A stretch of DNA of 64,000 bases from Candidatus Eiseniibacteriota bacterium (GTDB lineage: Bacteria > Orphanbacterota > Orphanbacteria > Orphanbacterales > Orphanbacteraceae), in the NCBI GenBank assembly GCA_024276995.1, contig JAJRWB010000012.1:33618-97617 (forward strand). The letters are read 5' to 3'. The position numbers were made by a program, and so were the translations under genes. Of this stretch, positions 23,869 to 34,914 are shown piece by piece (the stretch's first letter is position 1; every line of letters starts with the position of its first letter). The notes under the pieces are model-generated. The model was given only the letters and a program-made list of their open reading frames with translations, was not told the DNA's origin and did not search any database.

Positions 23869-25876
23869 TCAATCAACCGTTTGCCCCGCCGCGCGGGCAC
23901 GCGCCTCCAATCTCCGGATCATCTTCTCAGTTTCGTCCACGTCCATGCCGATCCGTTTCCCCCGGGAGTTCTCCCGGATCCAGGTAAGGTGGCGGATGGC
24001 GGCGGCATACGCTTCTTCGGCGCGGCGTGGTCTTCCCGCGGACATGGCGTCGTCGCCGGACCGCCGGTAGAGATCCACCAGGGTTTCATGCACCGGTCCT
24101 GCGCCGCGTTCTTCGATTCCCGACAGCAACGCTTTCTCGCACGGCGCGATCACTTCTTCCGGCGAAGCGCCGGAACGGTGGCGCAGCTCGGCGAGCCTGA
24201 GAAGAAGGGGCACCTTCGCCGGACCGGAGGCGACGAGCCGCTCGAGTGCTTCCAGGGCGGCGTCCGTTCCCTTCTCTCTCACCAGCCGGTCCGTCTCGGC
24301 AAGCCGATCTTTCCACGGTGCGCGCTCCGTGCGGGAATAGATAGTGATCGTGGGACGGAAGTAACCATAGTCGCTCGGGAGAAGTTTCCACGTAAACGGG
24401 ATCGGGCCGAAGCGGATCGGGCGCTCGAAGGTTAAGGTTTTCTTGTAAGACCCGCCCGGGCCGATCTGTTCGAGAAACCGGCTCCGGGCGATGCGGTCGC
24501 CGATCGAATAGTCGGGAATGGCGATTTCCACGTCCGCGATCATCAGTATTTCCGGGTCGTACGCGGCGAGCCGGACCGGTTCGAATCCGGTGACCACGGT
24601 GGGATGGATTTTCGTGTCGATCGGCGGCGTATAGTACGCCCTTCCGTTTCTCGGGCTCGGAACGGCGATCATCGCACCGGCGGGGACGTTGTCGCGGATC
24701 CACCGGGCCGCCTCGTCCCTTACGTCGGTGGTGGAGAAGATCGACGCAATGGTGATCGCGTGAAGGAGGGCGAATGCGCCCAGGAAGAGCACCGCGGCGA
24801 CAGCGACCTTTCGCCCGCACCGGACGAGGCGACCGAGGGCGAGTCCCCCGAATAGGGAGGCGAGCACCGACAGCGGCAAGAAGTGGCGATAGAAGAGCAA
24901 AGGGCTTACGACGAAAAGAACGGTGAAGGCCGCCGCCACGGCGAAGAGCACCCATTTCCCCTTCTCCTTACGTTCGGGCGAGGAGGAAGACACCGAAGGG
25001 AAAGAGAATCGCCAGTGGAAAACCGAGGGAGTTGACGATCATGGGAAGAAGCGTCCCCCCCCGGAAGAGGGGGGAGTAGTAGAAAAGGCCGCCGAGACCG
25101 GTGGGGCCGAGGAAGGAGCGGAGATCGACGATGGCGGGAAACCCGACAAGGAGTCCGGCGATGAAACAGGTCGCCGCGCTCCATCGTTTCCATGAGCGTC
25201 ACGATTCGGCGTCCGCGAGGATCGCGTAGAGCGGCGCCGCGATGACGACGATGGAGATATACTTCGTCGCCGTGGCGAGGCCGGCAAAACCCCATGCGAG
25301 GGCAAGTGCCGCCGTGCTTTTCCGCGAGGCGAACCGCAGGGCGAAGTAAACCGCCGCGAGAGACACCGTGCTCGCGGTAAGATCCACCGCGGCATAATGG
25401 CTCTGGATCACGTGGTTCGGATTGACGGCGAGGAGGAAAGCCGCGCCGTAGCCGGCGCCTCGCCCGAGAGACAATGCGATCAACCCGGCGAGGAGCACCG
25501 CCACGGCCCCCGCAAGGGCCGAAACGATCCTGCCGCGCAATGTCCACGCGGCATGCAGGGCGGCGGGGGCTTCCCGCCACTCATCGAAGGTGAGTCCGAA
25601 CGGCGCCGGAACCGTGGGATCGGCGGCGATCAACGCGCCGACAAGGCAATAGTAGAACGGCGGGTTGATCATCCAGCCCGGGTGGAGGTCGAGCCGCCGG
25701 GGCTCCATGGGGGAAAGGGCCGAGCTGACCTGCCTTTCGTCGGGGTGAAACGACCGCGCTCTGTCCGCGCCATGGAGCGCCCAGTCGATTCCCGCCAGGC
25801 GAAGGGAGAGAGCGAGGAGGAAGACGGCGACCCACGGAGCCGCGCGGCGGAAATGCCCCCTCCCGTCCCCTGTCAC
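23869..25876 (-). pseudogene. ArnT/PMT-like GT-C membrane protein, disrupted by a TGA and a frameshift
   Basis: Read in one frame from GTG 25876 (GTGA overlap with the upstream stop) the gene gives 225 residues with the GT-C signature F-H-P-D-E and several membrane segments, then an in-frame TGA at 25199-25201. The same frame continues with clearly coding hydrophobic sequence (R-S-W-K-R-W, then F-I-A-G-L-L-V-G-F-P) to TAA at 24968-24970. The last third lies in another frame from GTG 24993 to 23869: membrane segments, then a soluble helical TPR-like tail. Joined, the three parts make about 660 residues, normal for PMT/ArnT-type transferases. Either a real pseudogene or sequence errors; a CGA-to-TGA change would explain the stop. 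Confidence 0.7.
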
Positions 25877-28081: not shown

Positions 28082-28525
28082 ATGAGAGCGGGATCGGTTC
28101 GGCTTTTCGGGGCAGGCTGCCTGGTTGTGGTGGCGCTGCTCTTCTTCGGCCTCAGACCGCTTTACATGGCGCGGTTCCGGGAAGAGGGGGTTCTCTCTCT
28201 CGCGCTGGGCCTCGCTGCGTGTCTCGGAGTGGTGGGGGCGAGTTTTTTCTTGCTGAGGTGGGCGATCGGGGCGTCGAACGCCGCATTCCACCTCGCCTTC
28301 GCCGGCGGGATCGCCGGGCGCCTGCTTATTCTCGGGGCGCTCGTGGGCATCTCCCGCCTGGCGCCGGGCGTGAACGGGACGGGTGTCGCGTTCGCGGTGA
28401 TAACGGCTTTCTTTCCGCTTACCATCCTGGAGCTTTTCTGCGTGCTCCGGGGGAAGAGCGGATCAAATGAGCGGGACCGGCGGGACGACACTCCGGGGCG
28501 GTCTCGAGCGGGACGAATAGAATGA
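28082..28525 (+). CDS. AtpI-like small membrane protein of the atp operon
   Basis: A 147-residue protein with four predicted membrane helices (about residues 8-22, 40-57, 66-88 and 95-120), a G-x-x-x-R-L-L-I-L-G loop and a highly charged C-terminal tail. Sequence motifs are weak, but its place between atpZ and atpB and its four-helix layout match ATP synthase I proteins, which help build the F0 sector. ATG 28082 follows the upstream stop by four bases; the gene ends in an ATGA overlap with atpB. Confidence 0.65.
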   Translation: MRAGSVRLFGAGCLVVVALLFFGLRPLYMARFREEGVLSLALGLAACLGVVGASFFLLRWAIGASNAAFHLAFAGGIAGRLLILGALVGISRLAPGVNGTGVAFAVITAFFPLTILELFCVLRGKSGSNERDRRDDTPGRSRAGRIE

Positions 28526-29400
28526 CGGAGACAACAGTCGGGGAGTTCCTGCTCGCGCAGGTGGGCGGGCACGGTGGCGAAGAAGCGGTCGGGGGCGCGG
28601 TCCACGGAGCGGAGCACGCCGCCGGATCGTTCGAATTCACCGAGATGTTTCACCACATCCAGGACCACGCGCTCATCGCCATTCCCCCGGTGCATATCGG
28701 CGGTGTGACCTTCGATTTCTCGATCACCAAGTTCATCCTCATGATGTGGATCTCCGGGCTTCTCTCCCTTCTCGTCTTTGGTGCGGTGGGGAGGAGGATC
28801 CGGGACGGGCGCGCGCCCCGCGGCGCCTTCGCGAACCTGTTCGAATCTCTCTTCCTCTTCGTCCGGGATGAGATGGTTTACAACATGATGGGGAAGGAAG
28901 CGGGGCGGCGTTACGCGCCGTATTTTTCGTCCCTTTTCTTCTTCATCCTGTTCTGCAATCTCTTCGGGCTCATCCCATTCATGAATACGGCCACGGGAAA
29001 CCTGGCGGTTACCGGCGGGCTCGCCGTGCTGACCTTCCTCATGACCCAGGCGGGGGGGATGCGCGCCATCGGTGTCGTACCCTAGCTGAAGAACATCGTT
29101 CCACCGGGGCTTCCCGTTTTTCTCTTTCCCATCATGTTGCCCATCGAAATCATGGGGCACTTCACGAAGCCCTTCGCCCTCACCGTGCGACTCTTCGCCA
29201 ACATGGTCGGCGGCCACGTGATCATCTTGTCGCTCATCGGCATGATTTTCATGTTTCGCGCACTCTGGGTCGCCCCAATAGCGATCGGGTTCATATTGTT
29301 CATCGATTTTCTCGAAGTGCTTGTGGCGTTTCTGCAGGCGTATGTTTTCGTTCTTCTGTCGATCCTCTTCGTCAATTCGGCGATTCATCCGGAGCATTAG
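28522..29400 (+). CDS. atpB: ATP synthase subunit a, interrupted by an in-frame TAG
   Basis: In one frame from ATG 28522 to the TAG ending at 29400 the gene would encode 292 residues, normal for subunit a. A TAG at 29083-29085 cuts it after residue 187. Both sides are plainly AtpB: before it T-A-T-G-N-L-A-V-T, after it P-I-M-L-P-I-E, the essential arginine in L-T-V-R-L-F-A-N-M, and F-L-Q-A-Y-V-F. The stop sits where a Tyr (TAC) would fit before L-K-N-I-V-P-P-G. The truncated product would lack the proton-channel arginine and could not work. The N-terminus is His-rich. Neighbouring genes use TAG as a normal stop, so global recoding is unlikely. Confidence 0.85.
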
Positions 29401-29479: not shown

Positions 29480-29701
29480 ATGGATTTCGGATTTCTCGGT
29501 GCTGGTATCGGAGCCGGTCTTGCTGTGATCGGCGCTGGTCTCGGAATCGGCCGGCTCGCCGGCTCCGCACTGGAGAGCATGGGCCGCCAGCCGGAGGCGA
29601 TGGGCGATCTCCGGGCGAACATGGTGATCGCCGCCGCCCTCGTCGAGGGGGTCGCGCTGTTCGCGCTCGTTATCTGTATTCTTCTGGCCACGAAGGCTTG
29701 A
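29480..29701 (+). CDS. atpE: ATP synthase subunit c
   Basis: A 73-residue helical hairpin. Helix 1 is glycine-rich (G-A-G-I-G-A-G-L); the polar loop is R-Q-P-E-A; helix 2 carries the ion-binding glutamate in A-L-V-E-G-V-A-L-F. The residue after the glutamate is Gly rather than Ser/Thr, and helix 1 has no Gln at the sodium-site position, so this c-ring is expected to use protons rather than sodium. AGGAGG lies well placed before ATG 29480. Confidence 0.92.
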   Translation: MDFGFLGAGIGAGLAVIGAGLGIGRLAGSALESMGRQPEAMGDLRANMVIAAALVEGVALFALVICILLATKA

Positions 29702-29731
29702 TCACCGGCGACGCCGAAGGCGGGGGTTTGA

Positions 29732-30235
29732 ATGGATAATCTGTTAGCCATAAACCCGGGGCTCATGATCTGGACCATCGTGAGCTTCCTGATATTCGTC
29801 TTCCTTCTCCGGAAGCTGGCATGGGGACCGATCATGAGCGGTCTCGACATGCGGGAGAAGGGTATCCGCGACTCGATCGAGCAGGCGGAGCGGAATCGGG
29901 AGGAGTCGGAGAAGATTCTCGATGAGCAGAAAGAGGCGCTTCGCCGCACGCACGAGGAAGCGAAGGAAATGATCGCCCGATCGCGAGATTCCGCGGAGAA
30001 AGAGGGGAACCGGATCATCGAAAAGGCCCGGAAAGAGGGCGACGATCTCATCGAAAGGGCGAGGGCGGAGATTCGGTCGGAAGAGCGGCGTGCCGTGGAG
30101 GAAGTTCGTCGCCAAGCGGTCGACATCGCCCTCGACGCGGCGGGCAGACTGATACGGAAATCACTCGAAACCGAGGATCACCGGCGGATCGTGGAAGATT
30201 TCATCGCCCGGCTCGGCTCGGAGCGCGATTCGTGA
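29732..30235 (+). CDS. atpF: ATP synthase subunit b
   Basis: A 167-residue peripheral-stalk subunit: one N-terminal membrane helix (about residues 8-27) followed by a long charged coiled coil (E-E-S-E-K-I-L, A-R-K-E-G-D, and so on) ending in a short delta-binding segment. Only one b gene is present, so the stalk should be a homodimer. The gene overlaps atpH by a GTGA. Confidence 0.92.
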   Translation: MDNLLAINPGLMIWTIVSFLIFVFLLRKLAWGPIMSGLDMREKGIRDSIEQAERNREESEKILDEQKEALRRTHEEAKEMIARSRDSAEKEGNRIIEKARKEGDDLIERARAEIRSEERRAVEEVRRQAVDIALDAAGRLIRKSLETEDHRRIVEDFIARLGSERDS

Positions 30236-30795
30236 GCACTTTCGGCGGAGCGATAGGGCGTGTCTACGCCGCGGCGCTTTACGAACTGGCCCGCGACGGT
30301 GGTGCCCTCGAGGAGCGACTCGAGGAAGTGCGCGCCCTGGCGGGGGTGATCGACCGGGAAAAGGGTCTTCGAGAAATCCTCACCTCGCCGCGGATCTCTG
30401 TGGCGGAAAAGGAGAGGCTGGTCTCCGATGTGATGGGGCCGGGCGTCTCGACGGAACTTAAGAACCTCGTGAATCTGCTGATCGGGCGAAACAGGCACTT
30501 CTTCCTGCGCGAAATCCTCGAGACGTTCGTGGAGATCTACCGGGAAGAGAAGGGGCAGATCAAGGCGAAGGTCACCACCGCCTTGCCTCTCGACGACGAA
30601 ACGGCCGGCCGCCTCGCGGCGGCGCTCGGTTCGCGCACCGGGAGGGAGGTTTTGTTCGACAGGAGTGTCGATGCCGGCCTGGTGGGCGGTGTCGTCATAC
30701 GCTACGGCGATTACATCGTGGACGGCAGTTTGAAAACACGGATACGCAAGATGAAGGAAAGCCTCCTCGAAACCACAGATCAACAAGGGAGCTAG
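30232..30795 (+). CDS. atpH: ATP synthase subunit delta
   Basis: A 187-residue protein with the helical OSCP/delta N-terminal domain (A[11 protein letters not shown]) and the C-terminal [12 protein letters not shown] signature. It links the b stalk to the top of the alpha-beta hexamer. GTG start in a GTGA overlap with atpF. Confidence 0.92.
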
Positions 30796-30803
30796 GCGTT
30801 CAG

Positions 30804-32324
<1,521 letters not shown>

Positions 32325-32333
32325 CACCAGACC

Positions 32334-34650
<2,317 letters not shown>

Positions 34651-34914
34651 ATGGAAAGAGAGCTGCACTGCGAAATCCTCTCTCCCGACGGGAGCGTTTG
34701 GTCGGGAGAGGCCGTCATGGTGGTGGCCACTGCCGTCGACGGGCAGCTGGGTATCCTCTTCAACCACGCCCCCCTCGTTACCGCCCTCGGCGACGGCCCG
34801 CTCCGGCTCAAGTCGGCCGACGGGTCGGAGAGAAAGTACGTCGCCCATGGCGGCTTTCTCGAAGTGTTCCGCAACCGGGTGACCGTGCTGACCGACAAGA
34901 TCGAGGAAGGATAG
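34651..34914 (+). CDS. atpC: ATP synthase subunit epsilon, short form
   Basis: An 87-residue subunit consisting only of the N-terminal beta-sandwich (G-I-L-F-N-H-A-P-L-V-T-A-L-G near the middle, then H-G-G-F-L-E-V). The C-terminal helical hairpin that inhibits ATP hydrolysis in ~135-residue proteins is absent. Short forms are known in the FCB group. It starts directly after the atpD stop and ends the operon; no clear terminator hairpin is visible before the convergent gene at 34942. Confidence 0.92.
   Translation: MERELHCEILSPDGSVWSGEAVMVVATAVDGQLGILFNHAPLVTALGDGPLRLKSADGSERKYVAHGGFLEVFRNRVTVLTDKIEEG

Follow-up and report, generated by a model that had tools for sequence, protein, structure and literature searches.

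Does a bacterium with an otherwise complete atp operon carry a stop codon inside atpB, or does that stop exist only in its assembled sequence? The question is raised by a stretch of 64,000 nucleotides (the window) from the genome of a Candidatus Eiseniibacteriota bacterium, in which an in-frame TAG interrupts atpB (28522–29400, + strand) after residue 187. An earlier note, made from the letters of the window, had described this stop as lying ahead of the channel arginine and had offered three explanations for it: a sequence error, suppression, or a second atpB elsewhere in the genome. The description is borne out by the assembled sequence, where the codon of the channel arginine, R223 (29188–29190), lies downstream of the TAG within L-T-V-R-L-F-A-N-M; this arginine, in its R-L-F-A-N motif, is invariant in the AtpB alignment. 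Coordinates of the features discussed are collected in Table 1.

Table 1. Features of the atp region and in-frame stops elsewhere in the same assembly. Positions are those of the window unless preceded by an L number.
Feature	Location	Strand	Basis
atpB, part before the stop (187 aa + TAG)	28522..29085	+	ORF; PF00119 match
In-frame TAG; Tyr codon in 6/6 same-family genomes	29083..29085	+	Sequence; alignment of relatives
atpB remainder in the same frame (residues 189-292 + final TAG), R223 inside	29086..29400	+	66-74% identity to relatives
atpE, atpF, atpH, atpA, atpG, atpD, atpC, intact, downstream of atpB	29480..34914	+	ORFs, stops, aligned homologues
PMT-type glycosyltransferase gene, in-frame TGA (second in-frame stop in the window)	25199..25201	-	PMT_2 match
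mcsB-like arginine kinase gene, two in-frame TAGs	L170 17928 and 18474	+	Relative has Glu at both
Thymidine kinase, in-frame TAA	L160 11137	-	
Lon, in-frame TAG	L255 3027	+	
FlgK, in-frame TAG	L241 16331	-	
LarE-like, in-frame TAA	L240 199	-	
TolB, in-frame TAA	L243 1388	+	

That the frame encodes AtpB on both sides of the stop, as had been claimed, is supported by a PF00119 match that spans it (read-through residues 72–284, profile positions 1–216 of 217, E = 2.9e-58). In gene order, domain content and possession of the channel arginine the gene is like those of other F-type ATP synthase subunits a, and it differs from them in one codon, TAG in place of Tyr, by which its reading frame is interrupted. 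No further lesion, of the kind expected in a pseudogene, was found within atpB after the stop, and the gene ends at a TAG of its own (29398–29400). The claims made for the rest of the operon also hold: the seven genes downstream on the + strand are each a single open frame, and TAG is the terminator of atpH, atpA, atpD and atpC.

The genome (G000; 3.76 Mb in 81 contigs, about 96% complete) could be compared with six others of the same family in the collection. The aligned residue is Tyr in all six, encoded by TAC or TAT and by a stop in none, and the earlier suggestion that a TAC codon would fit is thereby strengthened. The Y188 column is invariant in a nine-protein AtpB alignment in which the TAG was counted as Tyr, with more distant AtpBs sometimes having Phe or His at this position. 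When 60 genomes were searched, no stop was found inside AtpB in the 48 others with an AtpB match. Identity to the relatives is 58–64% before the stop (from residue 60) and 66–74% after it; the part after the stop is thus as conserved as the part before, which argues against decay of the downstream portion of the gene. A scan of the contigs of the collection for nearer kin or a second assembly gave closest relatives of only up to about 53% identity.

The title of the earlier note implied that the atpB stop is unique, and this did not stand: it is one of about 15 such sites in a sample amounting to a quarter of the genome. That sample was made up of 20-kb stretches totalling 864 kb of G000, the window included, with 20-kb stretches totalling 1.12 Mb from three same-family genomes serving as controls. 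Stops having a same-frame coding signal on both sides were sought with a trained hexamer coding score, and the candidates were read by eye before their read-through translations were searched with Pfam or compared with aligned homologues, so that the list partly rests on by-eye judgement after a coding-potential scan. A stop count from tblastn homology only was swamped by shadow-frame matches and was set aside in favour of Pfam and aligned homologues.

Using this approach, 15 in-frame stops were identified in otherwise continuous conserved genes of G000. Eight are TAG (atpB, two in mcsB, an M28 peptidase, BatD, a GT1 glycosyltransferase, FlgK and Lon), four are TAA (thymidine kinase (tdk), an ABC_sub_bind protein, a LarE-like protein and TolB) and three are TGA (a GT4 glycosyltransferase, the PMT-type glycosyltransferase of the window and an NHL-repeat protein). 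A Pfam domain runs across the stop in 12 of the 15, the LarE-like case also having a PDB alignment; in the PMT-type glycosyltransferase, for example, the PMT_2 match covers read-through residues 90–215 and the TGA stands at residue 201. The first mcsB site and BatD rest on homologue alignments, and the NHL case is weaker. A further TAA was found in an ABC ATPase elsewhere, with no stop among the matches listed for its relatives. Some candidates were rejected, namely a TAG at L242:19261, which is a natural gene end, a relative having a stop at the same place, and L173:1816, position 34648 of the window and others, which are ordinary adjacent genes sharing a frame.

In the controls, for which 30 candidates were put through Pfam and the others judged by eye, one domain-spanning stop was found, a TGA in a thioredoxin-like protein of the relative G004. 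Allowing for the lengths sampled, the two counts, 15 in 864 kb and 1 in 1.12 Mb, differ at a binomial p near 4e-5. The absence of any stop from 54 response-regulator domains fits a frequency of roughly one per 17,000 codons. The TGA of G004 lies in the thioredoxin-like domain (L187 10081, + strand), and selenocysteine is one possibility there.

The composition of the stops also bears on their origin. The ratio of TAG, TAA and TGA (8:4:3) fits that expected of uniform substitutions on the codon usage of G000 (0.49:0.24:0.27; chi-square p 0.83) and fits transitions alone poorly. All of the resolved sites are transversions, these being Tyr to TAG in atpB, Glu to TAG twice in mcsB (both Glu assignments taken from one relative) and Ser TCG to TAG in flgK. 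Ordinary pseudogenes and gene decay would bring frameshifts, and no frameshifted gene was detected in the homology-covered sequence of G000. Taken together, the mix of stops, the transversions and the lack of frameshifts argue against TAG recoding, against a TAG suppressor and against ordinary decay.

Given these many stops of all three types, sequence error becomes the leading one of the three options that had been put forward. We consider it probable, at roughly three in four, that the atpB TAG is a single-base substitution error in an apparently metagenome-derived consensus, where it would have replaced a Tyr codon, and we infer that the in-frame stops as a group are products of sequencing or assembly which the organism itself does not have. 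Scattered base errors in the consensus fit all of the observations: the stops are isolated and of three types, occur in codon-usage proportions and in conserved genes of varied function, and exceed the rate in related genomes. As nonsense changes make up 2.8% of random substitutions on this codon usage, the 15 stops in 864 kb imply an error rate of roughly 6e-4 per base, which is an approximate lower bound. Contigs of up to 277 kb, which suggest fair coverage, count against this reading. Fair coverage usually keeps substitution errors below roughly 6e-4 per base; the rate implied here is high for contigs this long. Radical missense changes showed no excess, either across the atp operon or within conserved alignments; this is a weak test, as only a few would be expected at 6e-4. 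A literature search found no report of known nonsense errors in metagenome assemblies.

An unlikely alternative is a genuine nonsense allele in the sampled cells, which either arose recently as a null or belongs to a single strain of a mixed population, the cells conserving energy by other means. The TAG does stand in the assembled sequence, and many stop-bearing genes could be expected under relaxed selection or in a transversion mutator. However, profile searches of the genome found one PF00119 gene only and no match to a V/A-type subunit I, so that a true null would deprive the remaining ATP synthase genes of their proton channel; the second atpB that had been put forward as an option was not found. 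The full conservation of the sequence after the stop and the lack of frameshifts also speak against such an allele, as does the nature of the resolved changes, which are unlike the mostly C/G to T/A transitions of natural bacterial mutation (PMC2936535). Extended to the whole set of stops, the corresponding proposal is that nonsense codons of all three types, scattered over core genes with the only atpB among them, are tolerated or read through in this organism, or that it belongs to a mutator lineage in which transversions are building up nonsense alleles; this we regard as very unlikely.

A further possibility is read-through of the TAG, with a residue, for which Tyr would fit, supplied by a suppressor tRNA or through leaky termination to give a full-length subunit a; we hold this to be highly improbable. 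A single-copy atpB with a conserved downstream frame and several in-frame TAGs in intact-looking genes speak in favour of such read-through, and an in-frame TAG in a conserved gene is shared with known TAG reassignment and suppression (pyrrolysine systems, code 15 phages, suppressor tRNAs). Unlike those systems, G000 gave no match to PylS (TIGR02367), and a CUA anticodon occurs in 0 of the 43 tRNA genes found, the one tRNA-Tyr gene having GUA; in an assembly about 96% complete this absence is not proof. As tRNA-Ile (GAU) and tRNA-Ala (UGC) were also not seen among the 43 (L031–L075), perhaps having been lost with unassembled rRNA operons, the tRNA list probably falls short of the full set. A match over the cut-off shows RF1 to be present, and TAG is widely used as a true stop, terminating 70 of 253 long ORFs in the first sample. 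Since TAA and TGA are affected too, and the replaced residues include Tyr, Glu and Ser, TAG recoding cannot explain the in-frame stops, nor would any single suppressor or reassignment; the earlier view that genome-wide recoding of TAG is unlikely is upheld. Least probable of all is a subunit a of two chains, the second begun by re-initiation downstream of the TAG at an internal ATG (29134). This ATG opens an 88-aa in-frame ORF containing R223, but a ribosome-binding site is not visible upstream of it, the ATG sits within a conserved stretch, and atpB is split in no relative.

If the stops were real, this bacterium would run core genes, its single ATP synthase included, through nonsense codons. 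The finding is, most likely, an assembly mistake and not new biology. If it is such an error, false stops in the assembly would number about 60 or more, and calls of gene absence or of pseudogenes made from it would be untrustworthy, a useful warning about the quality of this genome; the living cells, on the same reading, probably encode an ordinary full-length subunit a.
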